Shown here: positions 816-31,604 of the stretch, in pieces
Layout of the letters: each line of letters starts with the position of its first letter
Numbering within the stretch: position 1 is the first letter of the stretch
Source: a virus
Length of the DNA stretch: 37,929 nt
IMG/VR virus record: IMGVR_UViG_3300030331_001621
Span: 1 to 37,929 of that record
Direction: 5' to 3' (one strand)
Translations under genes and position numbers: made by a program
Notes under the pieces: model-generated
Seen by the model: only the letters and a program-made list of their open reading frames with translations
Databases searched by the model: none
Told to the model about the DNA's origin: nothing

Positions 816-1198
816 TAGAATACGCATTAATAGCAGACTTTAACTTTGCACAAATAAAAGAAGACTCAGCAAGAATAGACTCATATTTAGAAAGTCAAAA
901 AATAGAGTTTGTAATAGATGAACCCGTACATGACCAAGTTAAACAATATGTTCTTTGGAGTTTAGCAGACCTTTATACAACACATAGAGCTATGGAAATA
1001 ACTTCTGCAACAGAAAAAAATATTCTTTTACCTGATAGACCTGAGCTTCATGAACTACTAATTCATAAAACATGGACACATATTGTTTTAACAGAACTAG
1101 GTTGGTTTGACAGAAAAGAAGAATTAAACTTAATTATTTTAAATACTATAGGCTGGTCAGTTGTATTTAGCAATCACGATATATTATATGATAAATAA
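812..1198 (+). CDS. Hypothetical protein between the curlin-like and cyclase genes
   Basis: This 128-residue soluble protein is rich in acidic and aromatic residues (TWTHIV, LGWFDRKEE). I see no signal peptide, membrane segment or known motif, and I do not recognise the family. Its ATG overlaps the stop of the curlin-like gene by four bases, and its end overlaps the cyclase ATG at 1188 by 11 bases. It is therefore probably co-translated with both. It might be an adaptor or regulator for one of them, but that rests on position alone. Confidence 0.7.
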   Translation: MIEYALIADFNFAQIKEDSARIDSYLESQKIEFVIDEPVHDQVKQYVLWSLADLYTTHRAMEITSATEKNILLPDRPELHELLIHKTWTHIVLTELGWFDRKEELNLIILNTIGWSVVFSNHDILYDK

Positions 1199-2972
1199 AT
1201 TCTACAATCCTTTAATAGGACTTGCACTCCTGGCTTTTCTAGTCTGGAATCCTACACCCTTAAAAATACTTGAACTTAAAACATTTGATTGGCTTATGTC
1301 AACTAAAGAGCCTGTGTGGGATCAAATGATTTTGCTTGTAGACATAGATGAAGAAATAATAAAAGCATACAATGGTTATCCTTTACCTAGAAGCTTATAC
1401 GGACAAATAATTTCACGAACAGAAGGGACAGCTGGTATTACAGTTTTAATGCCAGACCCTGATATTCGAGGTAAAATAGAAGATGAATACTTTGGAGAAC
1501 TACTCAAAATTCACCCTTCTGTTTTGGCATATACTGCTTCTAATCAAGCAACGCAAGTAGGGCCTCATGTAGGCACTGCTCAACTAGGAGGTGACCCATC
1601 TGAATGGCTATTAACATACCCAGGAATTTTACGACAACAACACAAAGGAGACGGCGTAGGCTTAGTAAACTCAAGTCCAGAAATAGACGGAATCGTAAGG
1701 CGCGTTCCTCTCGTCGTAAGTAGTAATGATAAACTGTTTCCCTCTTTTGCGTTAGAGATGCTTAGAGTAGGAGTAGGAGACCCTAGCTATCAAATAAAAA
1801 CAGAGGAGACAGGTGTTGAATGGCTAAGAATACCTAATTTTCCAGTAATAAATACAGATTCTAATGCTAGAGTCTGGATAACAAATAATATAAAATTTTA
1901 TAGGCAGTCTGCAGCGGAGTTTCTCCAAGAGCCTATAGAAGGCGCCGCTTTTGTAATCGTAGGGGTTACAGCAGAAGGAGTTGTTAATCCAGTTCCTACT
2001 GCTAGCGGAGCTATCTACCCACATGAGGTACAGGCAAATGTTTTACACCATTTAATAAACGGAACAAGCCCTGTCCAACCCGTGTGGTCAGATGCAGCAG
2101 AGCTTGGAGTCGCACTAGTACTTATACTTATATTACTAGTTGCGGCTTCCAATGTATATTTTTCACTACCAATATTTTTAACTAGCATGGGCGGACTTAT
2201 GTATGGTAGCTGGTATGCCTATCAATCTTCTTATTTGATAGACGTTTCTGGAATTATAATTATCGGGTTTCTTTTCTGGACTATTGTAACTTTCAGGAAT
2301 TTTATTCAGCAGTATTTCATGAGAATGGAAATTAAAAAACAATTTGGGACATATGTATCCCCAGACTTGGTTAAAAAATTACAAAAAGACCCATCATTGC
2401 TGAGATTGGGTGGGGAGACAAAACGACTTACATTTTTATTTTCTGATATTCGAGGATTTACACCGATTTCTGAAAAATACCAAAAGAATCCGCAAGGACT
2501 TACACATCTAATAAATCGATTTTTAGATAACCAGACTGAGATAATTTTAAAACATGGTGGTACAATTGATAAGTACATGGGTGACTGCATTATGGCTTTT
2601 TGGAACGCCCCGCTAGACATAGAAGACCAAGAACGAAAAGCCACAGAGTGCGTACTCGAAATGAGAGTCGCATTAGGAGAACTAAATGAAAAGCTCAGAC
2701 AGGAAGGCTTGGAACAAATTAATACGGGGGCTGGAATCAACAGCGGCCCGTGCGTGGTGGGAAATTTTGGCTCCAGTAACCGTTTTGATTATAGTGTTCT
2801 TGGCGATGCTGTCAATCTGGCAGCACGGTTAGAAAGCTCTTGTAAAACTTATGATACCGATTTAATTATATCAGAATATAGTTTGGTAGATGGTTTTGAT
2901 TATGAGTTTTTAGATGAGGTAACTGTAAAAGGTAAATCCGAACCAGTTAAAATATACACCATACAAAAATAA
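1188..2972 (+). CDS. CHASE2-domain class III adenylate cyclase (membrane)
   Basis: The 594-residue protein has an N-terminal hydrophobic segment (residues 7-20), then a CHASE2-type extracytoplasmic sensor to about residue 305 with the typical early FDWLM and VDIDEE motifs. Three close membrane helices (about 310-375) lead into a C-terminal cyclase domain. The active site looks intact: metal-binding Asp in FSDIRGFT (D420) and KYMGD (D466), purine-selecting K462, and transition-state N543 and R547 in AVNLAARLE. S536 sits where class IIIb cyclases carry Thr/Ser. It should make cAMP from ATP at the inner membrane in response to a periplasmic signal. The reading frame extends to a TTG at 1161, but the ATG at 1188 puts the hydrophobic helix at the very N-terminus and is preferred. 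Neither start has a clear Shine-Dalgarno, so translation probably depends on the overlap with the upstream gene. A guanylate product is less likely given K462. Confidence 0.9.
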   Translation: MINKFYNPLIGLALLAFLVWNPTPLKILELKTFDWLMSTKEPVWDQMILLVDIDEEIIKAYNGYPLPRSLYGQIISRTEGTAGITVLMPDPDIRGKIEDEYFGELLKIHPSVLAYTASNQATQVGPHVGTAQLGGDPSEWLLTYPGILRQQHKGDGVGLVNSSPEIDGIVRRVPLVVSSNDKLFPSFALEMLRVGVGDPSYQIKTEETGVEWLRIPNFPVINTDSNARVWITNNIKFYRQSAAEFLQEPIEGAAFVIVGVTAEGVVNPVPTASGAIYPHEVQANVLHHLINGTSPVQPVWSDAAELGVALVLILILLVAASNVYFSLPIFLTSMGGLMYGSWYAYQSSYLIDVSGIIIIGFLFWTIVTFRNFIQQYFMRMEIKKQFGTYVSPDLVKKLQKDPSLLRLGGETKRLTFLFSDIRGFTPISEKYQKNPQGLTHLINRFLDNQTEIILKHGGTIDKYMGDCIMAFWNAPLDIEDQERKATECVLEMRVALGELNEKLRQEGLEQINTGAGINSGPCVVGNFGSSNRFDYSVLGDAVNLAARLESSCKTYDTDLIISEYSLVDGFDYEFLDEVTVKGKSEPVKIYTIQK

Positions 2973-2975
2973 CTC

Positions 2976-3004
2976 TTGACATCTTGCTAAGATTTTGCTA
3001 TAAT
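2976..3004 (+). promoter_or_regulatory. Extended -10 sigma70-type promoter P1
   Basis: TTGACA at 2976-2981 and TATAAT at 2999-3004 are separated by 17 bp, with TG one base before the -10 box. Transcription would start near 3011, giving a leader of about 37 bases before the ATG at 3048. The site begins just after the cyclase stop and would drive the accessory, lysis and basic-protein genes. Its design matches the sites at 8632 and 31576. Confidence 0.88.
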
Positions 3005-3047: not shown

Positions 3048-3272
3048 ATGGCTACAGAAACTATACAAAACTCTAAAGATATTGCAGAACTTGATAAAAG
3101 AATGTCAACACATGAAGTTATGTGTGATGAACGCTGGAAGACTTGTTTTTCTAGGCTTGACGATTTAGATACTAGTATCGGTCGTTTAGAATCTATAGCT
3201 ATCGCAGCAAGTGGCACTATTATTGTAGGTACAGTAGGTGTACTTGTTACCATCTTTATGATGCATAATTAA
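3048..3272 (+). CDS. Small membrane protein, XhlA/holin-like
   Basis: The 74-residue protein has a charged, probably helical N-terminal half with two cysteines (MCDERWKTCF), a short LDDLDTSIGRLES helix, and one C-terminal membrane segment (about residues 50-72). This layout resembles the XhlA-type small phage proteins that act with holins. It is the first gene after P1 and lies upstream of the spanin genes, which supports a lysis role. No endolysin adjoins it, so the holin assignment is tentative. A membrane anchor for another phage protein is the alternative. Confidence 0.6.
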   Translation: MATETIQNSKDIAELDKRMSTHEVMCDERWKTCFSRLDDLDTSIGRLESIAIAASGTIIVGTVGVLVTIFMMHN

Positions 3273-3273
3273 T

Positions 3274-3699
3274 ATGGCTTACTCAAGAAAAGTTGTTGAA
3301 AGATTTGAAAATGTATTAAATAATCCTGCCGCACACTCAGTTGGCAGGTTTGACCCAAAAGACCCAATGGTTGCAACAGGCATGGTAGGAGCACCAGCCT
3401 GTGGTGATGTAATGAAACTCGACTTAAAGTTAGATGATAACGATAGAATACTAGATGTTAAATTTAAAACTTATGGTTGTGGTTCAGCAATCGCTTCCTC
3501 TACAATGTTTGTAGAAATGTTAAAAGGCAGAACAATAGAAGAAGCAAAATTAATAAAAGATAAGGACATAGCAGATGTTCTTGAATTACCTCCCATCAAA
3601 CTGCATTGCTCAGTCTTAGCTGAATCAGGCATAAAGAAAGCAATTGAAAATTGGGAGTCTAAAAAAGCAAAAAGGCAACATAATGGAGGCCCAATATGA
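3274..3699 (+). CDS. iscU: IscU-type iron-sulfur cluster scaffold
   Basis: The 141-residue protein is a full-length IscU. All three cluster cysteines are present: C43 in GAPACGDVMKL, C69 in KTYGCGSAIASS and C112 in KLHCSVLAE. The modulating D45 and H111 are also present. LPPIK at 105-109 matches the LPPVK motif by which the chaperone HscA binds E. coli IscU. Every landmark is shifted by six residues relative to E. coli IscU because of an insertion near the N-terminus (around residues 16-30). In the host, IscU receives sulfur from IscS and passes clusters to apoproteins. No iscS, hscA, hscB or fdx is nearby, so it would have to use host partners. The ATG starts one base after the previous stop, without a clear Shine-Dalgarno. 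The function is near certain; the benefit to the phage is not visible. Confidence 0.95.
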   Translation: MAYSRKVVERFENVLNNPAAHSVGRFDPKDPMVATGMVGAPACGDVMKLDLKLDDNDRILDVKFKTYGCGSAIASSTMFVEMLKGRTIEEAKLIKDKDIADVLELPPIKLHCSVLAESGIKKAIENWESKKAKRQHNGGPI

Positions 3700-3884
3700 A
3701 AACAGATTATCAAACAAAAGATATGAAAGCACCAAAACCTAGCGGAATGAAACCGCCCACTACTGATGGAGAGATTTTTGAAAGAGATGGTATGTGGTTT
3801 TTTCAATGGAAAGGTGGAGAGTGCGGTTACATGACTAAGGAGCTAGCAGAAGAAGGGCTAGAAAAAGTCAGTGGAAACTCTTAA
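3696..3884 (+). CDS. Hypothetical small protein
   Basis: This 62-residue protein has a Lys/Pro-rich start followed by a compact Trp-rich core (ERDGMWFFQWKGG). I do not recognise the family. A GGAGG site at 3685-3689 inside iscU and an ATGA overlap with the iscU stop make the start secure and imply coupled translation. Confidence 0.7.
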   Translation: MKTDYQTKDMKAPKPSGMKPPTTDGEIFERDGMWFFQWKGGECGYMTKELAEEGLEKVSGNS

Positions 3885-4119
3885 GAAAATATTTGAAAAA
3901 TTAAAACAATTTTGGTACTGGTTTACTAGTTGGTTTATTTACTACTATGAATTAAAAGTAAGTTATAACCATACATGGGGTGACGCAGACGACCAAACTT
4001 TTATTGTACGTAAGTTTTATACTAAAAAAGAAAAGTATTTAAAATTTAAAACAAGAGAAGGAGAAATTGTAGAGATACGAGGAGCAGAAGGGTTAAATTA
4101 TAGGATTTCACAAATATGA
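3871..4119 (+). CDS. Hypothetical protein with aromatic membrane-seeking N-terminus
   Basis: The 82-residue protein starts at GTG 3871, overlapping the previous gene by 14 bases. An amphipathic helix is followed by a very aromatic stretch (FWYWFTSWFIYYYEL, about residues 14-28) that could insert in or lie on a membrane. The rest looks like a small beta domain (TWGDADDQTFIVRKFY, then GAEGLNYRI). Similar short proteins are familiar from marine phages, but I know of no function. Confidence 0.68.
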   Translation: METLKKIFEKLKQFWYWFTSWFIYYYELKVSYNHTWGDADDQTFIVRKFYTKKEKYLKFKTREGEIVEIRGAEGLNYRISQI

Positions 4120-4511
4120 ATCAATTATATATAGGCATAATTATAGTACTTGGATTAGGTAGTTACTATCTTTATCAACAAAATCAAGTATTAACAGCAA
4201 ATAATATGCAATTAGAGGGTGCAATAGCTACTCAAGAGGAAGCTATCGCTACAATGAAAGAAGATTTCACCATGCAAGCAGAACAATTGCAGGTTATGAC
4301 ACAAAAAAGTCAAGCTGCTCAAAGAGAATTAAATAGATATACTCAATTTATTCAAAATTATCAATTAACAGCAAAAATACTGGAAAATCCAGAAGAAATG
4401 CAGAGGAAAATAAATAATGGTACAAAACACATCATGGAAGACATCGAGAAACTTAGCGCTACTGTTGACGATCTTGATGATGGGCTCCAGTTGCAGCCTA
4501 ATTCCAACTAA
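4116..4511 (+). CDS. Inner-membrane spanin (Rz-like)
   Basis: The 131-residue protein has one N-terminal membrane helix (residues 4-20), then a long Gln/Glu-rich coiled coil to about residue 95 and a hydrophilic tail. This is the i-spanin plan: anchored in the inner membrane and reaching across the periplasm to the outer-membrane partner, so that both membranes fuse at the end of lysis. The next gene starts inside its 3' end in the +1 frame and encodes a lipoprotein, as in lambda Rz/Rz1. The call rests on architecture and this nesting, not on recognised sequence similarity. Confidence 0.78.
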   Translation: MNQLYIGIIIVLGLGSYYLYQQNQVLTANNMQLEGAIATQEEAIATMKEDFTMQAEQLQVMTQKSQAAQRELNRYTQFIQNYQLTAKILENPEEMQRKINNGTKHIMEDIEKLSATVDDLDDGLQLQPNSN

Positions 4512-4806
4512 ACAAATAGAAGTTACAGCTAAACCAATGGAACGAAATATTGTTCAACCCGTTATGCCTCGTGAAATAGCATTAAAAGATGTAAAATGGT
4601 TAACTGTAACACCCGACAATTGGGAAGAGCAACTAAAAATCATAGAAGAACAAGAAGGTGAGTTAGTATTTTTAGCACTAAGTATACCAGATTATGAATT
4701 AATGGCATATAATATGCAGGAGTTAAAAAGATATATCACTGAACTAAAAGATGTTGTAGTATACTATAGAGAAGTTACTACACCAAAAGATGAGTCTACA
4801 AAGTAG
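4417..4806 (+). CDS. Outer-membrane lipoprotein spanin (Rz1-like)
   Basis: The 129-residue product has a positively charged N-terminus, a hydrophobic core (LALLLTILMM) and a lipobox-like MGSSC that would lipidate C26, though the residue at -3 is Gly rather than the usual Leu. The mature part of about 104 residues includes an LKDVKWLTVTPDNWEE segment and a helical NMQELKRYI segment, a pattern I associate with spanin-like proteins of marine phages. It overlaps the i-spanin gene by 95 bases in the +1 frame. It is longer than lambda Rz1 and not notably Pro-rich. Confidence 0.74.
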   Translation: MVQNTSWKTSRNLALLLTILMMGSSCSLIPTKQIEVTAKPMERNIVQPVMPREIALKDVKWLTVTPDNWEEQLKIIEEQEGELVFLALSIPDYELMAYNMQELKRYITELKDVVVYYREVTTPKDESTK

Positions 4807-5117: not shown

Positions 5118-5203
5118 TGCCATATCATTATAAACCAAAGAAGAAGAAAAAGAAAAAAGGTGGCAAGAAAAAGAAACGCATGAGAGGTCACCATGGTTGC
5201 TAG
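5117..5203 (+). CDS. Lysine-rich 28-residue miniprotein
   Basis: The ATG at 5117 overlaps the previous stop by one base and has GGAGG at 5105-5109, so translation is well supported despite the size. The 28 residues are mostly Lys with Gly, His and Arg, starting MPYHYKPKK and ending MRGHHGC. It is too short for domain assignment. It is the first of eight consecutive basic genes. Confidence 0.6.
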   Translation: MPYHYKPKKKKKKKGGKKKKRMRGHHGC

Positions 5204-5387
5204 GAGAAGAACAAGACGTAGGAAAACTACTTCAAGAAAAAAACGTAATATACCTACTAACTCCAAGTTGTATGCAAGGGTAAAAGCGGCGGCCAGACGA
5301 AAGTTCGCCGTTTATCCCAGCGCGTATGCAAATGCTTGGTTAGTTAGAGAGTATAAGAAGCGAGGAGGAAGATATCGTCGTGGCTAA
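5193..5387 (+). CDS. Basic protein with YPSAYANAW motif
   Basis: This 64-residue protein has an Arg-rich head (ARRRTRRRKTTSRKK), a conserved-looking core (KLYARVKAAARRKF, then YPSAYANAWLVREYKKRGG) and an Arg/Gly tail. The core is a family I associate with small proteins of marine phages and some large DNA viruses, without a proven role. The extreme charge suggests nucleic-acid binding. It overlaps the previous gene by 11 bases and the next by 8. Confidence 0.75.
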   Translation: MVARRRTRRRKTTSRKKRNIPTNSKLYARVKAAARRKFAVYPSAYANAWLVREYKKRGGRYRRG

Positions 5388-5553
5388 GAAAAAAGCAAAA
5401 ACTAAAAAACTTACTAAAAGACAACAATCTACTTTGAGAAAACACAGTAAACATCATACCAAAAAGCACATGGCTTTTATGAGAGCACAAATGAGAAAAG
5501 GAAAATCATTTACCGCAGCACATAGGGCAGCAAAAAGAAAGGTAGGAAGATGA
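5380..5553 (+). CDS. Basic protein with HSKHHTKKHM motif
   Basis: GTG at 5380, preceded by GAGGAGGA at 5362-5369, opens a 57-residue reading frame ending at the TGA at 5551. The product has a Lys-rich head, a His-rich stretch (LRKHSKHHTKKHM) and a helical tail (SFTAAHRAAKRKVG). Similar short basic proteins recur beside structural genes in marine phages. The four-base overlap with the next ATG (ATGA) supports coupling. The His cluster could bind metal or nucleic acid; neither is shown. Confidence 0.68.
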   Translation: MAKKKAKTKKLTKRQQSTLRKHSKHHTKKHMAFMRAQMRKGKSFTAAHRAAKRKVGR

Positions 5554-5849
5554 GTAGACCTGGGGGACTTACAAAGTGGTTTGGAGAAAATTGGGTAGAT
5601 ATTGGAAGACCTAAGAAAGGAGGCGGTTACCATAAATGTGGAAGACGCAAAGCCAAGAAAGGTAGAAAAGGTTATCCTAAGTGTGTTCCTGCAAGTAAAG
5701 CAGCAAGAATGACTAAAGCTCAGATTCGTTCAGCAGTAAGACGAAAAAGAAAAGTAAAACAAGGTGTAGGCGGAAAACCGACTAATGTCAAAACATTCGC
5801 CAGGCGAGGCGGACGTAAAAGAAAAACAGTTCGTCGAAGAGGGAGATAA
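5550..5849 (+). CDS. Basic protein, LTKWFGENWVDI family (DUF5872-like)
   Basis: The 99-residue protein begins with the recognisable LTKWFGENWVDIGRP block. Two cysteine-containing segments follow (YHKCGRRKA and YPKCVPASKAARMT), then VGGKPTNVKT and an Arg-rich tail. I associate this block with DUF5872, found in phages and large eukaryotic viruses; the family name is from memory. The paired cysteines may bind metal. Its place among basic proteins just before the packaging genes suggests a virion-internal or DNA-binding role, which is inference. Confidence 0.78.
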   Translation: MSRPGGLTKWFGENWVDIGRPKKGGGYHKCGRRKAKKGRKGYPKCVPASKAARMTKAQIRSAVRRKRKVKQGVGGKPTNVKTFARRGGRKRKTVRRRGR

Positions 5850-5851
5850 AT

Positions 5852-5989
5852 ATGGCTCTAACAGCTAAACAAAAGAAATTACCAATGGCATTACAAAAAG
5901 CAATTCTTGCAAAACAAAAAAGAAATGGCAAGAAGAAAGGTATGAAGAAAAACGGAAAGAAAAAACGTCGTGCCCGTAAGAAAGGTTAA
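5852..5989 (+). CDS. Lysine-rich 45-residue miniprotein
   Basis: ATG at 5852 follows a GGGAG site in the end of the previous gene. The product starts with a short amphipathic helix (LTAKQKKLPMALQKAILAK) and ends in an unstructured Lys/Arg/Gly tail. I do not recognise a family. The last 20 bases overlap the next gene in a different frame, and both frames encode basic residues there. Confidence 0.6.
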   Translation: MALTAKQKKLPMALQKAILAKQKRNGKKKGMKKNGKKKRRARKKG

Positions 5990-6122
5990 AGGCGGTTACC
6001 GTTGGGGTAAATCTGGAAAGGTTTACAAGAGTAGAAAAGCTGCAGAGCGGCAAGGCAGGGCGATATACGCATCAGGCTATGGTAAGAAGAAAAAAACGAG
6101 ATCCAAGAAAAGGAACAGGTAA
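5970..6122 (+). CDS. Basic protein with KGGYRWGKSGKVY motif
   Basis: A GTG at 5970 opens a 50-residue frame ending at the TAA at 6120. The product contains PVRKVKGGYRWGKSGKVY, then RKAAERQGRAIYASGY and a Lys/Arg tail. This is a very common small-protein motif in tailed phages, usually near structural genes, with no known function to my knowledge. Its recognisable core is the best evidence that the short frames here are real genes. It overlaps the genes on both sides, by 20 and 44 bases. Confidence 0.72.
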   Translation: MPVRKVKGGYRWGKSGKVYKSRKAAERQGRAIYASGYGKKKKTRSKKRNR

Positions 6123-6402
6123 AAAACCAAAAGGTTCTGGAAGAAGATTATATACAGATGAGAACCCAAGAGATACTGTTAGAATTAAGTTTGCTACTGT
6201 AAAAAATGCAAGAGCAACAGTAAGAAAAGTCAAAAGAGTACGAAAATCCTATGCTAGAAAAATTCAAATACTAACTGTAGGCGAACAACGAGCAAGGGTT
6301 ATGGGTAAGAAAACTGTAGCATCTGTTTTTAAATCTGCCAAAGCAGGCTTAAGGAGAGCAAGAAATGGTAAGAAGAAGACGGCCAGCAAAAAGAAAAGGT
6401 AG
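6079..6402 (+). CDS. Basic protein with KPKGSGRRLYTDENP motif
   Basis: Of 107 residues, about 19 are Arg and 22 Lys, against five acidic ones. An unstructured basic head leads to a conserved-looking core (GSGRRLYTDENPRDTVRIKF, then YARKIQILTVGEQRARVMGK) and a basic helical tail. The core is familiar from marine phages but uncharacterised. The first 44 bases double as the 3' end of the preceding gene. Confidence 0.75.
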   Translation: MVRRKKRDPRKGTGKKPKGSGRRLYTDENPRDTVRIKFATVKNARATVRKVKRVRKSYARKIQILTVGEQRARVMGKKTVASVFKSAKAGLRRARNGKKKTASKKKR

Positions 6403-6679
6403 AGACCCTAGATTAAAAAGAGCGGGCGTATCAGGTTTTAATAAACCAAAGCGTACGCCCGGACACAAAACTAAATCACATATAGTAGTTGCTAAAGTTG
6501 GCAACAGAATAAAAACTATAAGATTTGGACAACAAGGTGCAAAAACAGCTGGCAAACGTAGAGCAGGGGAATCTAGGAGAATCACAATGAAACGTAAGTC
6601 TTTTAAGGCAAGGCACAGAAGAAATATCGCCAAAGGTAAGATGTCAGCAGCTTACTGGGCAAACAAAGTAAAATGGTAA
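6365..6679 (+). CDS. Basic protein with KARHRRNIAKGKMSAAYWANKVKW ending (DUF6321-like)
   Basis: The 104-residue protein has about 19 Arg and 18 Lys but only two acidic residues. Recognisable blocks are LKRAGVSGFNKPKRTPGH, a small beta segment (SHIVVAKVGNRIKTIRFGQQG), and the ending KSFKARHRRNIAKGKMS followed by a Trp-rich close. I recall this domain from phages and large algal viruses (DUF6321-like, from memory); the function is unknown. AAGGAG near 6352 supports the ATG at 6365. The first 38 bases also encode the Lys-rich tail of the preceding gene. Confidence 0.8.
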   Translation: MVRRRRPAKRKGRDPRLKRAGVSGFNKPKRTPGHKTKSHIVVAKVGNRIKTIRFGQQGAKTAGKRRAGESRRITMKRKSFKARHRRNIAKGKMSAAYWANKVKW

Positions 6680-7305: not shown

Positions 7306-8607
7306 ATGCTAGACGTAAGTAGAACAGATATTGTAAGTTCTGAACTAATGAAATTTGATACAGCCGAAAGGTTTATTAAACTTCCTATATCAGAATATAT
7401 GAACTTATTAGGTATTACACCTAATTCATCACAGACTGCACTAATTAACGCAGTCAACAACCCAAAATATAGATTCGTGTGTGCCGCCATTTCTAGGCGA
7501 CAGGGCAAAACTTATATCACAAATGTAATTGGACAACTTGTGTCACTCGTGCCTGGCTCACATATATTAATTATGTCACCGAACTATTCTTTATCCCAAA
7601 TATCTTTTGATTTACAAAGACAGCTTATAAAGCACTTTGATTTAGAGGTGGTAAGAGATAATGCTAAGGATAAAGTTATCGAACTCTCTAATGGTTCTAC
7701 TATTAGAATGGGTTCAGTAAATCAAGTAGACTCTACTGTTGGTAGGTCTTATGATTTAATCATCTTTGATGAGGCAGCATTAGCTGATGGAAAAGATGCT
7801 TTTAATGTAGCACTCAGACCTACACTCGATAAAGAAAATAGTAAAGCTGTATTTATTTCAACGCCAAGGGGAAGAAATAATTGGTTTGCTGATTTTTATT
7901 ATAGAGGATTTAGCGATGAGTTTCAAGACTGGGCATCAATAAGAGCAACATATCATGAAAACCCAAGGTTTAGTGATAATGATATTCTAGAAGCAAAGAA
8001 AGCAATGTCTCAAGCAGAGTTTGCTCAAGAGTATCTTGCTGACTTTAACACTTATGAAGGACAAGTTTGGAACTTTAATTTTGAAGAGTGTGTTGCAGAC
8101 TTAAGTCAGTTAGATACTAGCAAGATGGATGTATTTGCAGGACTAGACGTAGGTTACAAAGACCCAACAGCATTATGTGTTATAGCATATGATTGGGACG
8201 AACGAAAATATTATCTAGTAGATGAATACATGGACGCAGAAAGAACTACTGAACAGCATGCAGTAGAAATACGTAAAATGATAGATAAATATAATATTGA
8301 CTGGATTTATATTGATTCAGCAGCACAACAAACTAGATTTGATCTAGCGCAAAATTATGATATATCTACTATCAATGCGAAAAAATCAGTTCTAGATGGA
8401 ATAGGACATGCAGCAGGTATTATCGATAATGACTTGCTTATAATAGACCAAAAATGTTCACAAGCCTTATCGGCAGTTGACCAATATCAATGGGACCCCA
8501 ATCCTAATTTACTCAAAGAAAAACCTAAACATAATATGGCATCTCATATGTCAGATGCTTTACGTTATGCACTGTACACTTTTGAGACTTCTGCAAGTAC
8601 TTTTTGA
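7306..8607 (+). CDS. terL: Terminase large subunit
   Basis: The 433-residue packaging motor shows a variant Walker A (RRQGKT, residues 64-69), a Walker B ending in DE (IIFDE, D155/E156), the coupling region ISTPRGRNNWF at 184-193, and an RNase H-like nuclease starting FAGLDVGYKDPTA with D281. Later acidic positions include IYIDSAAQ and HMSDALRYA. It cuts concatemeric DNA and pumps it into the prohead through the portal. Its length is normal for the family. No recognised small subunit adjoins it, and no terminator follows before promoter P2. Confidence 0.95.
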   Translation: MLDVSRTDIVSSELMKFDTAERFIKLPISEYMNLLGITPNSSQTALINAVNNPKYRFVCAAISRRQGKTYITNVIGQLVSLVPGSHILIMSPNYSLSQISFDLQRQLIKHFDLEVVRDNAKDKVIELSNGSTIRMGSVNQVDSTVGRSYDLIIFDEAALADGKDAFNVALRPTLDKENSKAVFISTPRGRNNWFADFYYRGFSDEFQDWASIRATYHENPRFSDNDILEAKKAMSQAEFAQEYLADFNTYEGQVWNFNFEECVADLSQLDTSKMDVFAGLDVGYKDPTALCVIAYDWDERKYYLVDEYMDAERTTEQHAVEIRKMIDKYNIDWIYIDSAAQQTRFDLAQNYDISTINAKKSVLDGIGHAAGIIDNDLLIIDQKCSQALSAVDQYQWDPNPNLLKEKPKHNMASHMSDALRYALYTFETSASTF

Positions 8608-8615
8608 TTATGACC

Positions 8616-8656
8616 TACCAAAAAATAATTGTTGACAAACAGCTGAATTTTTGGTA
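8616..8656 (+). promoter_or_regulatory. Inverted repeat across promoter P2 (possible operator)
   Basis: TACCAAAAA at 8616-8624 and TTTTTGGTA at 8648-8656 are perfect 9-bp inverted copies centred on the -35 box of P2. A dimeric regulator could bind here and block RNA polymerase. The repeat is AT-rich, so chance is not excluded. Confidence 0.35.
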
Positions 8657-8660
8657 TAAT
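8632..8660 (+). promoter_or_regulatory. Extended -10 sigma70-type promoter P2
   Basis: TTGACA at 8632-8637, a 17-bp spacer and TATAAT at 8655-8660 with TG one base before it. The 16 bases ending in TATAATT are identical to those of the site at 31599. Transcription would start near 8667, only about 13 bases before the ATG at 8680. A 9-bp inverted repeat (TACCAAAAA at 8616-8624, TTTTTGGTA at 8648-8656) spans the -35 box and enters the -10. Confidence 0.88.
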
Positions 8661-8679
8661 TTTAACTAAATAAGATTTT

Positions 8680-9051
8680 ATGGATTTAAAAAGAGATTTA
8701 GTCAAGTACGTTAGGGACAAAGCCAAATCAGGATATAAGAAAGACACCCAATGCTTTATTTGTGGAGAAACAGAAAACTTAGAGTTTCACCACTATTACG
8801 GAATGACTGAGCTACTACACAAATGGCTGAAGGATAACAAAATTACGATTACCTCAGCCGATGAAATAATGAATCTACGAGAACAGTTTATTAATGACCA
8901 TCTCGTCGAAGTATACGATGAAGCAGCTACACTATGTAAAACTCATCACATAAGACTGCATAGTATTTACGGTAAAAGACCAAAACTGGTTACAGCAAAG
9001 AAACAAAAACGATGGGTGGAGATACAAAGAGATAAATATGGCATGGTATGA
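8680..9051 (+). CDS. HNH-like endonuclease, packaging-associated
   Basis: The 123-residue protein has a zinc-knuckle-like CFICG (C25, C28), an EFHHYYG motif (H37, H38), and a late LCKTHHIRLHSIYGK motif (C86, H89, H90, H94). Together these match a betabeta-alpha-metal HNH nuclease core with its structural zinc, though the central Asn is not obvious. HNH proteins next to terminase and portal are known to support DNA cleavage during packaging in several phages. It is the first gene after P2 and has no Shine-Dalgarno. The last 14 bases overlap the portal gene. Confidence 0.76.
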   Translation: MDLKRDLVKYVRDKAKSGYKKDTQCFICGETENLEFHHYYGMTELLHKWLKDNKITITSADEIMNLREQFINDHLVEVYDEAATLCKTHHIRLHSIYGKRPKLVTAKKQKRWVEIQRDKYGMV

Positions 9052-10252
9052 TAGATTTTTAGGCATAGAAAGAGAGGAAAAATTAAATCCTGCTCAAACT
9101 TATATAGGCCTAGAAGAAGGACTAGCAATAGACACTCGTGAAGTAAAAGATAATTATCGATCAGCTTACGAGGAACTAGAAGTAGTAAACAGAGCAGTTA
9201 ACATGATTGTTGATGATAGCTCTGATATACCTTTTGAAGTTGGAGAAAAAATACTTGGCTTAACACCTATGGTGCAAAATGTTCGTAGAAGTCGTGTTGA
9301 TTTACTACTAAATAAAGAGCCAAACCCTTTTCAGGATATCAGTTCTTTTAAGAGAAATCTTATAATTGATTTACTGATTGATGGAAACATTTTCATTTAT
9401 TATGATGGTGCCCATCTTTATCATTTACCTGCTAACAATGTTACTATAGAAACAGATACTCAAACCTATATTAGCAAGTATGTATATGATGGTCATATAG
9501 ACTACACCCCTAGTGAAATAATACATATTAAGGAAAACTCATTCAAATCAATATACAGGGGTGTACCTAGACTTAAACCAGCTTACAGGACTATGTTCCT
9601 ATTAGATAATATGAGAAAGTTTCAAGATAACTTTTTCAAAAATGGAGCAGTTCCAGGATTAGTACTAAAAAGCCCAAATACTCTTTCAGACAGAATTAAA
9701 GAAAGAATGTTACAAGCATGGTCTACTAGATACAATCCTAAGAATGGAGGTAAAAGACCACTTATATTAGATGGTGGTTTAGAAGTAGATAATTTAACAA
9801 AAATTAATTTTAAAGAATTAGATTTTCAACCTTCCATACAAGCAAATGAAAAAATCATATTAGAAGCAATGGGAGTTCCACCAATATTATTAGATGGTGG
9901 TAATAATGCAAATATAAGACCTAATCATAGATTATATTATTTAGAAACAATATTACCTATAGTTAGAAAGTTTGCGCATGCATTTGAAAGATATTTTGGA
10001 TTTAAATTAGTAGAAGATGTAACAGGAGTTCCTGCTTTACAACCAGAACTAAGAGACCAAGCAGCTTACTATGCAACACTTGTAAACACGGGTATAATGA
10101 CACCTAATGAAGTCAGGGAGCAGATGAACATGGAATCAATAGATGGACATGATGAATTAAGAATCCCTGCAAATATAGCAGGAAGTTCAGCAAACCCAAG
10201 CGAAGGTGGGAGACCACCAGAAGAAACAGAGGAATCAGAAGAAAATGAATAG
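9038..10252 (+). CDS. Portal protein (HK97 family)
   Basis: The 404-residue protein matches the HK97-type portal layout: an early VNRAVNMIVDDSSDIPFEV block, a clip/stem region with FLLDNMRKFQDNFFKNGAVPGL, then GKRPLILDGGLEV, and the late ILEAMGVPPILLDGG motif with PNHRLYYLETILPI. It forms the dodecameric ring at the capsid vertex through which terminase pumps DNA. The acidic C-terminal tail overlaps the next gene by eight bases. Confidence 0.93.
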   Translation: MAWYDRFLGIEREEKLNPAQTYIGLEEGLAIDTREVKDNYRSAYEELEVVNRAVNMIVDDSSDIPFEVGEKILGLTPMVQNVRRSRVDLLLNKEPNPFQDISSFKRNLIIDLLIDGNIFIYYDGAHLYHLPANNVTIETDTQTYISKYVYDGHIDYTPSEIIHIKENSFKSIYRGVPRLKPAYRTMFLLDNMRKFQDNFFKNGAVPGLVLKSPNTLSDRIKERMLQAWSTRYNPKNGGKRPLILDGGLEVDNLTKINFKELDFQPSIQANEKIILEAMGVPPILLDGGNNANIRPNHRLYYLETILPIVRKFAHAFERYFGFKLVEDVTGVPALQPELRDQAAYYATLVNTGIMTPNEVREQMNMESIDGHDELRIPANIAGSSANPSEGGRPPEETEESEENE

Positions 10253-10493
10253 ACCACAAGTACTAAAAGTATTAATGGAATACTTTGAAAAGAAAGGAAA
10301 AATCCTTTCAATTGATGAGTATAAAGCAGCTGAAGACGCTCCAATGCGTTTTATGGTTGCAAAAAGAGCTTTTGGCTCATGGGCAAGAATGCAGCAAATG
10401 ATGAAAGCTGCAGGTTGGACAGATACTCCAGCACCAGCACCAAAACCAAAAGCAAAGCCAGCTCCTAAAAAAGCTGAAAAGAAAGGTAAGTAG
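10245..10493 (+). CDS. Small protein with HNH-repeat-like FGSW motif and Ala/Pro/Lys tail
   Basis: The ATG at 10245 gives 82 residues; a GTG at 10206 in the same frame would add 13 residues inside the portal gene and looks less likely. The folded part (KILSIDEYKAAE, then VAKRAFGSWARMQQMMKAAG) resembles the small helical repeats often found next to HNH endonucleases, with the typical FGSW and final AG. A low-complexity tail rich in Ala, Pro and Lys follows. It may be a small DNA-binding or assembly protein. The similarity is judged by eye. Confidence 0.6.
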   Translation: MNRPQVLKVLMEYFEKKGKILSIDEYKAAEDAPMRFMVAKRAFGSWARMQQMMKAAGWTDTPAPAPKPKAKPAPKKAEKKGK

Positions 10494-10495
10494 TT

Positions 10496-12559
10496 ATGTC
10501 AGATAAAATTTTTCATTGGTCATCGACTTTTAAATCCTTAGGGGAAGATGATGACGGAAGTGTTAATATCAAAGGATATGCTAGCACTAATGCATCAGAT
10601 AGATCTGGTGATATAATTAATCATGATGCATGGACTAAGAATGGTGGATTAGAAAATTTTAAAGGCAATCCAATAATTCTTTTTAACCATGACTATAATA
10701 AACCTATTGGTCGTGCAACTTCACTAGAAGTAAACGATAAGGGCCTCGAACTTGGAGCTAGAATCTCTAAGTCCGCAGGTGAGGTAAAAGATCTTATTAA
10801 AGATGGCGTACTTGGAGCATTTTCCGTGGGTTTCCGAGTCAAGGACGCTGATTATCTAAAGGAAACTGACGGGTACATGATAAAGGACGCTGAATTATTT
10901 GAAGTGTCTGTTGTAAGTGTTCCTTGCAACCAGACCGCAATGTTCTCGATTGCGAAATCATTCGATTCTCAATCAGAATATGATGAATGGAAAGCTGAAT
11001 TTACAAAAGAAAGTAAACAGGCTCATGAGATGGAAGCAGTAAAAACTGACGAAATTGATGCGCCACAAGCCGTGGGTAAAACCACTCAACAGGAGAGACA
11101 TATGTCTACAGAAAAAACTACTCCAGATGCTGAGTTAGACTTAAAAGCATTCGCGGAAGAGGTGGCAAAATCAACTGCTGCTAAAATCGCAATGCAACAA
11201 GCAGAACAAAAAGCAAAAGAAGTAAGCGAAGCTGAAGAGAAAGCAGCTGCTGAACAAGCAGAAATAGCTGAAAAAGAAGCTGAGCAAGAAAAAGTTAAAA
11301 CTATTGTAGAAGTCGGCATGTCTGGAGCTGAACAGCTCATGAATGACGTTGAAAAACGCGTTTCAGATAAGCATGAAGACCTTGAAAAAGTAGTTAATGA
11401 ACTTAAAACTGAACTGTCTGATAAAAAAGAAGAGATTAACGCTATTCGTGAATCTAAAAGAGTATTTGGCGACAGACAAAACAGCGACTGGCAGAAAGCC
11501 TTCCAAAGCGACATTGATGACGCTTTTGTAATGGGTCTTGCTACTGGTAAAGGCTGGGATACTAAACTTGCGAAAAACGTAATGGAAAAAGTTAACGCTC
11601 ATTCAGGTGTTGGCGTATCTAGTGCAGATTTTGAACAAACAGTATCAACAAATATCGAAAGAGATATTCAACTAGAGTTAGTATTGGCTCCTCTATTTAG
11701 AGAAATTCCAATGCAATCAGCAACTCAAATCATTCCAATCATGCCAGATGCAGGTTACGCAGAATTTACAGCTAACCAAACTGCTTCTGGAAGTTCACCA
11801 CATGGTAACTTAGAAGAAAGGGGTGACACATATGGTTCACCATATAGTGGAATTGACCTAACTGAAAGAACTCTTTCAACTAAAAAACTTATTTCACAAT
11901 CATTCTTAGGTAATGAAACTGAAGAAGACGCAATTCTACCGATTCTTCCTTTAATTAGGGATTCAATCGTTAGATCACATGCAAGAGGTATTGAAAATGC
12001 TTTACTAGTGGGTGACCACGCTGATGGTGTATATGGTACATCAGGAGCTTCCTTCCAAGGATTAGTTAAATTAGCTACAGATGATGACTCAAGTGGTACA
12101 CACGTGACTCAATCTGCAACTGCATTTGCATCTGAATCTTTAACAGCAGCTACATTGTTAAATGCTAGAAAGAAAATGGGTAAATACGGAATTAACCCAG
12201 CAGATGTAACATACATTGTTAACTCAACTGAGTATTTCAACTTGCTAAGTGACGCTGAGTTCCAAGATGTTAACCTAGTTGGCAACATGGCAACTAAGCT
12301 TAACGGTGAAATTGGAGAAGTCTTTGGTTCTAAAGTAATCGTTTGTGACGAGTTTGCTACACCAGCAGTCTCTAAGTTCTATGGCTTAGCCGTATATACA
12401 AAGAACTATGTAATGCCAAGATTAAGAGGTGTTACTATTGAGTCTGACTATGAAGTAGCCAACCAAAGAAGAGTTTTAGTAGCTTCACAAAGACTCGGGT
12501 TTACCGATATGATTGACGGAGCAACTTCAGTTCACGCTTTAAAATACAAAGCTAGTTAA
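10496..12559 (+). CDS. Prohead protease-scaffold-major capsid fusion protein
   Basis: One 687-residue frame joins three functions. Residues 1-155 are an HK97-type prohead protease (S78-like), with H65 in LFNHDY, S110 in LGAFSVGF and a Glu in AELFEVSVVSVP as likely catalytic residues. Residues of about 200-330 are an Ala/Glu/Lys-rich coiled coil, expected to act as scaffold. The rest is an HK97-fold capsid protein, with motifs LVLAPLFREIPMQSA and a late YEVANQRRVLVASQRLGF. In many phages these are separate genes. Here an internal AGGAGA and ATG at 11102 could also yield a scaffold-capsid protein without the protease. Protease self-cleavage and removal of the scaffold would follow shell assembly. 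Confidence 0.92.
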   Translation: MSDKIFHWSSTFKSLGEDDDGSVNIKGYASTNASDRSGDIINHDAWTKNGGLENFKGNPIILFNHDYNKPIGRATSLEVNDKGLELGARISKSAGEVKDLIKDGVLGAFSVGFRVKDADYLKETDGYMIKDAELFEVSVVSVPCNQTAMFSIAKSFDSQSEYDEWKAEFTKESKQAHEMEAVKTDEIDAPQAVGKTTQQERHMSTEKTTPDAELDLKAFAEEVAKSTAAKIAMQQAEQKAKEVSEAEEKAAAEQAEIAEKEAEQEKVKTIVEVGMSGAEQLMNDVEKRVSDKHEDLEKVVNELKTELSDKKEEINAIRESKRVFGDRQNSDWQKAFQSDIDDAFVMGLATGKGWDTKLAKNVMEKVNAHSGVGVSSADFEQTVSTNIERDIQLELVLAPLFREIPMQSATQIIPIMPDAGYAEFTANQTASGSSPHGNLEERGDTYGSPYSGIDLTERTLSTKKLISQSFLGNETEEDAILPILPLIRDSIVRSHARGIENALLVGDHADGVYGTSGASFQGLVKLATDDDSSGTHVTQSATAFASESLTAATLLNARKKMGKYGINPADVTYIVNSTEYFNLLSDAEFQDVNLVGNMATKLNGEIGEVFGSKVIVCDEFATPAVSKFYGLAVYTKNYVMPRLRGVTIESDYEVANQRRVLVASQRLGFTDMIDGATSVHALKYKAS
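11091..11104 (+). promoter_or_regulatory. Internal ribosome binding site and start (Met203) in the protease-capsid gene
   Basis: AGGAGA at 11091-11096 lies five bases before an in-frame ATG at 11102. The site falls at the boundary between the protease and the coiled coil. Initiation here would give a 485-residue scaffold-capsid protein. This is a better Shine-Dalgarno than the one at the gene's own start (10496). Confidence 0.7.
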
Positions 12560-31575: not shown

Positions 31576-31604
31576 TTGACACTTACCTTAATTTTTGGTA
31601 TAAT
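31576..31604 (+). promoter_or_regulatory. Extended -10 sigma70-type promoter P3
   Basis: TTGACA at 31576-31581, a 17-bp spacer and TATAAT at 31599-31604 with TG one base before it. It lies in the 83-base gap between the tail-tip and fibre blocks. Transcription would start near 31611, about 18 bases before the ATG at 31629, with GGAG in the leader. It shares the design of P1 and P2. Confidence 0.88.

Follow-up and report, generated by a model that had tools for sequence, protein, structure and literature searches.

A predicted CHASE2 adenylate cyclase encoded by a phage, probably as the last gene of a curli module

We analyzed a 37,929-base virus record from a marine tailed phage (this whole stretch of DNA is called the window) that encodes, near one end, a CHASE2 transmembrane class IIIb adenylate cyclase (AC). 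With a probability of roughly 0.6, AC is the 3' last gene of a curli (type VIII secretion) module carried by the phage, with the order csgF-csgG-curlin-fecR-(curlin2)-(orf2)-AC, in which periplasmic FecR would report curli secretion to CHASE2, which in turn would set cAMP synthesis. Modules of this type occur in several groups of marine phages that are unrelated to one another. A complete transmembrane second-messenger enzyme is rare in phages, and, if AC is active, widespread marine phages would control host cAMP in a manner coupled to surface amyloid export. The purpose of phage curli genes is still debated, with sibling capture, superinfection defence, a nutrient pore and lysis as candidates, and the near-inseparable link between FecR and the CHASE2 cyclase provides a testable handle on this question, the more so as cultured phages bearing the module exist (HTVC008M and Melnitz).

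The AC reading frame is complete, with 594 codons for amino acids and no internal stop, and its ATG start lies within an 11-base overlap with the preceding ORF. The gene and its parts are as follows.

1188-2972, + strand: CHASE2 transmembrane class IIIb adenylate cyclase, 594 aa (Pfam, PHROG, AlphaFold2, alignments)
1191-1301, + strand: N-terminal helices, residues 2-20 and 23-38, signal anchor/first transmembrane helix (AlphaFold2 secondary structure)
1224-2138, + strand: CHASE2 domain, Pfam residues 13-317, E 1.7e-30
2088-2345, + strand: three membrane helices, residues 301-319, 323-346 and 354-386, the last leading into the cyclase linker (AlphaFold2)
2421-2966, + strand: class III cyclase catalytic domain, residues 412-593, with D420, K462, D466, S536, N543 and R547

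The first-pass annotation, made from the letters of the DNA, had described a sensor, three membrane helices and a class III cyclase, and had proposed a profile search and a structure prediction as checks. Both profiles were found far over their curated cut-offs, CHASE2 with the E value listed above and Guanylate_cyc at residues 412-593 with an E value of 3e-20, and PHROG 35576 spans nearly all of AC (E 3e-157). The AlphaFold2 model (mean pLDDT 88.8) has the class III fold and a periplasm-type alpha/beta domain between the N-terminal helix and three long helices. The domains were thus as described, and the helix count was revised to four, since Pfam and AlphaFold2 together place one helix before CHASE2 and three after it; the Pfam span of CHASE2 includes the first membrane helix and reaches into the second. 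Foldseek and a PDB sequence search matched the cyclase domain to the class III cyclases 6fht, Cya2 (2w01) and CyaB (3r5g), and in a viral structure library the sole near-full-length match was an uncultured-phage protein (TM 0.95, 34% identity). At the level of predicted architecture, AC is thus a class IIIb cyclase of the inner membrane whose CHASE2 domain lies in the periplasm.

We examined the conservation of the active site in 203 phage homologues. D420, K462 and D466 were invariant, R547 was present in 202 (the exception being one truncated row) and N543 in 201 (the exceptions being the truncated row and Melnitz), and position 536, at which class IIIb enzymes carry Thr or Ser instead of Asp, was Ser in 199 and Thr in 2. 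All six residues named by the first-pass annotation are present at the positions it gave. In the alignment, the adenylyl cyclases CyaB and CyaC have Lys where AC has K462 and Thr where AC has S536, and the guanylyl cyclase Cya2 has Glu at the K462 site, so that the earlier assignment to adenylate cyclases by class IIIb residues agrees with the CyaB/CyaC pattern and not with that of Cya2. Guanylate cyclase activity was considered, as Cya2 is among the best structural matches, yet was rejected as the likely activity, Cya2 having Glu at the K462 site. The purine pocket is accordingly predicted to be of the ATP type rather than the GTP type. Pseudomonas aeruginosa CyaB, Spirulina CyaC and Synechocystis Cya2 share the class III domain with AC, at no more than 38% identity in the fold match, but differ from it in their sensor parts.

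Pairwise dN/dS among the phage homologues had a median of 0.043 in the cyclase domain and of 0.145 in CHASE2, far beyond chance. Judged from these sequences, AC is under strong purifying selection with its catalytic set intact, and it is most likely an active, ATP-using enzyme. The Melnitz cyclase (L083, 11992-14043) carries N543 to Ser and S536 to Asp changes and a C-terminal extension; its activity or product may differ, and AC activity may therefore not be universal.

We investigated the genes around AC in the window, which are listed below.

15-815, + strand: curlin-repeat protein, second curlin of the module by its position as in loci L001 and L011 (Curlin_rpt E 3.7e-15)
812-1198, + strand: small ORF, 128 aa, between the curlin gene and AC and overlapping both; family match in about one-third of close relatives
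2976-3004, + strand: sigma-70 promoter of consensus sequence, TTGACA-N17-TATAAT, its -10 preceded by TG; located just past the AC stop
3048-3272, + strand: small conserved protein with a soluble N-terminal part and a C-terminal transmembrane segment; first gene past the promoter, a neighbour and not module core
3274-3699, + strand: NifU/IscU-like Fe-S scaffold, a neighbour (Pfam, PHROG)
4116-4806, + strand: Rz/Rz1-like spanin pair in overlapping frames, 4116-4511 and 4417-4806 (phrog_739 E 1.7e-9, phrog_812 E 4.3e-11); lysis context
7306-12559, + strand: head genes, namely terminase large subunit, a small HNH-like ORF, portal and fused protease-capsid; phage backbone

The curlin gene product also matched the CsgA model (E 6e-16, under the curated cut-off), and the 128-aa ORF had no Pfam or PHROG match. 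The contig begins at the curlin gene, so csgF, csgG, the first curlin gene and fecR would fall beyond its end. The nearest relatives of the window, L001 and L011, have fecR, and L011 also has csgG and csgF.

At least 600 viral stretches encode relatives of AC. Three scans, together with two annotated records, supplied the 213 viral loci that we examined; overlapping scans repeat some contigs, so the counts are of loci and not strictly of independent genomes. In the 73 loci where 6 kb or more of DNA precedes AC, FecR was encoded in 72, curlin in 72, CsgG in 71 and CsgF in 71. Conversely, all 32 csgG loci with 5.5 kb downstream had FecR and 31 had AC downstream, the remaining locus having AC elsewhere on the same contig; these rates are biased to near relatives, as the loci were chosen by similarity among the nearest matches listed. 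The window terminase and capsid are ~50% and ~35% identical, respectively, to those of the nearest phages, which we take to be T5-like. AC adjoins these same T5-like terminase, portal and capsid genes in 83 examined loci, which bears out the earlier view of a phage-encoded gene beside phage late genes, and T4-like markers were found in 65 loci. As read from gene content, at least two of the lineages examined, the T4-like and the window-type, siphophage-like one, carry AC together with fecR and the curli genes.

Of 77 related loci, 74 have the promoter 3' of AC with at most one mismatch, compared with 1.6% for control windows, and this predicted site forms the 3' boundary of the curli module. 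No consensus sigma-70 site was found within 500 bases upstream of csgF in 84 loci. Among the 50,697 records of a phage collection, only HTVC008M and the Melnitz isolates had this type of CsgG together with AC; one further CsgG match was on a fragment of 1.5 kb that is labelled as Salmonella phage, and these records included no relative of the window lineage that bears the module.

We next consider the bacterial relatives of AC, which are mostly from Alphaproteobacteria (30-38% identity). No CsgG or CsgF was encoded within 8 kb of AC in the 80 nearest bacterial loci. Among the 73 relatives with upstream DNA, fecR was directly upstream of AC on the same strand in 19; in further cases it was divergent, near or downstream, and in 40 there was no FecR within the available stretch, indicating that FecR is not obligatory in bacteria. 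Eighteen of the fecR-adjacent genomes had only 1-7 FecR matches each, from which we estimate the probability of fecR lying beside AC by chance at well below 1%. A number of the bacterial FecR proteins are large and contain RTX, Ig-like or cadherin domains, and some are RTX/cadherin adhesins. This gene order is evidence for an old bacterial partnership of fecR and the CHASE2 cyclase, which may act together in signalling more generally.

With regard to the cytoplasmic sigma-binding segment of anti-sigma FecR proteins, we note that a hydrophobic, signal-like segment opens the phage FecR. In its model, a linker of low confidence connects an N-terminal beta domain to a second beta domain at the C-terminus, with no further N-terminal domain. 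The N-terminal domain of the model resembles the CSS domain of the anti-sigma protein PupR (6ovk) and the 'cell surface anchoring domain' of an antifreeze adhesin (5ix9), the latter also by sequence (E 0.015). A curlin-like pattern, GxxNx[AIV]x[AIV]xQ, was found in the C-termini of 53 of 99 FecR proteins (L011, 2713-3819, and others) versus 1.2% of shuffles, the pattern having been picked after these C-termini were inspected. Curlin_rpt of Pfam did not match there, and a small beta domain occupies this part of the model, so the FecR C-terminus was rejected as a curlin repeat and the pattern is kept as a weak lead.

Given this gene order, FecR can be inferred to be the partner that gates CHASE2. 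During infection, CsgG and CsgF would form an outer-membrane pore and curlin subunits would cross the periplasm; secreted FecR would report the state of the pore or fibre to CHASE2, which would set the cyclase and change cAMP output. More speculatively, cAMP would then act on a host effector and tune expression or envelope state while fibres form. A fuller account, which we regard as possible but hold only tentatively, is that the module is a self-contained envelope checkpoint, in which FecR would monitor curli export and signal through CHASE2 to cAMP, assembled from the old bacterial fecR/CHASE2-cyclase pair and a curli set and spread among T4-like, podophage-like and siphophage-like marine viruses.

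Related arrangements are known from bacteria. The Sinorhizobium meliloti CHASE2 cyclases work with the outer-membrane protein NsrA and the receptor Clr (PMC7529298, PMC13001267), and CyaD1 lacking CHASE2 produces cAMP constitutively (PMC5498481). By description, CyaD1, CyaD2 and CyaK are, like AC, CHASE2 inner-membrane cyclases gated via the envelope, but they differ in using the beta-barrel NsrA instead of FecR and curli and in having a known Crp-type receptor. In a Burkholderia biofilm operon (BiofilmReg), a LysM-FecR protein is paired with a CHASE2 kinase (PMC5192318); here a FecR protein is likewise encoded beside a CHASE2 receptor, but the output is a histidine kinase and there is no cyclase.

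As to a cAMP receptor, the PF00027 cNMP-binding domain was not found in any of 26 phage records, among them the complete genomes of HTVC008M and Melnitz. We also searched 80 genomes of a small-genome alphaproteobacterial order, which was reached via a proteorhodopsin-bearing member, may not be that of the host and is, at a guess, SAR11-like. No cNMP-receptor match was found in 53 of them, and nearly all the others had matches only in frames of 400-880 aa; no clear Crp-sized frame was found among the 80, with one 150-aa frame in a single genome (G143).

The first-pass annotation had read AC as a sensor-type cyclase with which the phage would raise host cAMP in response to a periplasmic cue. The intact CHASE2 sensor was upheld, but the gene is probably not isolated, its relatives being part of a curli module with FecR, and the phage module itself is therefore the likely source of the cue. 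That AC instead works on its own in the phage, sensing an external cue or one from the envelope, raising host cAMP and reprogramming metabolism while the curli genes happen to lie alongside, is consistent with the intact CHASE2 and cyclase domains and with the many bacterial CHASE2 cyclases that have no FecR neighbour. We nevertheless consider it unlikely, given the near-complete two-way association with csgF, csgG, curlin and fecR across phage lineages and the lack of the receptor domain in the 26 phage records. Somewhat less likely still is a role in lysis timing, in which the CsgG pore, FecR and AC would form an envelope checkpoint and AC would sense the envelope ahead of spanin and putative holin action. 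Indeed, the conserved strong promoter and a holin-like transmembrane protein follow AC in the window lineage, with the Rz/Rz1 pair also in the window, and a pinholin or secretin role has been proposed for CsgGF of Melnitz (PMC9004378); however, the promoter stands between AC and the lysis genes, structural rather than lysis genes adjoin AC in HTVC008M and Melnitz, and the holin call derives from architecture only.

A Pycsar-like defence or counter-defence system producing a cyclic pyrimidine or a decoy nucleotide is improbable. The PycC models of PADLOC match the AC catalytic domain (best E 8.6e-29), but this match is limited to the shared, generic class III domain, the purine-type Lys is kept, and the neighbours at 15-1198 and 3048-4806 include no match to a TM or TIR effector, one small transmembrane protein there being without a family. 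To our knowledge, CHASE2 and transmembrane helices are not part of Pycsar. The chance that AC is host DNA joined to a phage contig or captured by accident is negligible. The order from AC to the terminase is identical in dozens of independent contigs, cultured phages have the gene, and the phage ACs form one phage-only clade (SH-aLRT 97; 55 phage and 40 bacterial rows, in a tree made by a quick method and with long outgroup branches). The recurrent junction and this clade rule out a contig artefact, and with it the bacterial contig join at AC against which the first-pass annotation had cautioned. Membership in the curli module with gating by FecR remains the preferred reading.

CsgG and CsgF were reported earlier in pelagimyophages and Melnitz (PMC7029224, PMC9004378), and FecR and AC in the curli modules of Pelagibacter myophages and podophages, with alphaproteobacterial affinity and transfer between phage families (mSystems 2022, PMC9599517). 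That module has the csgF-csgG-curlin-fecR-(curlin)-AC set and order of the window type and the same affinity, but the window phage differs from those phages in its T5-like terminase and capsid and its lambda-J-like tail gene; the text of PMC9599517 does not name CHASE2, places FecR and AC outside bacterial curli operons and does not note the bacterial fecR/CHASE2-AC pair. AC is also already annotated in the records of HTVC008M (gp019, NC_020484) and Melnitz (gp104, MZ577097), which, like the window type, have a full-length CHASE2 cyclase after the curli genes, but these are T4-like phages, their cyclases are ~37% identical to AC, and Melnitz departs at two active-site positions. With phage AC in curli modules of myophages and podophages published in 2022, novelty is limited. 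What is new is a third, siphophage-like lineage with a curli-module AC, the assignment to CHASE2 and class IIIb with conservation and dN/dS across 203 proteins, the near-obligate two-way association of AC and curli genes, the finding that fecR adjoins CHASE2-AC in bacteria, and the conserved promoter at the edge of the module.

The window also encodes a tape measure protein, and it contains no tRNA; a 24-kb stretch of it had no near match in the phage collection. The 3048-3272 protein belongs to a family with an invariant ERWKT motif that lies directly 3' of the promoter in 77 loci and is without a family assignment; by its architecture it is a putative, unproven holin. The IscU/NifU-like gene is in the AC neighbourhood in the window and lies 5' of csgF in many relatives (L014, L027 and others). 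Most window-type loci conserve, just 5' of the terminase, a run of small, very basic proteins, which in the window lies at 5193-6679 (phrog_23735, weak DUF5872). A single 687-aa ORF at 10496-12559 encodes the prohead protease fused to the major capsid protein, and the T5-like phages listed annotate the two separately. Further TTGACA-N17-TATAAT promoters are present on the + strand at 8632-8660 and 31576-31604, and together with that at 2976-3004 they have similar extended -10 ends, TTTTGCTATAAT / TTTTTGGTATAAT; a site matching these promoters lies on the - strand within the AC gene, at 2815-2788.
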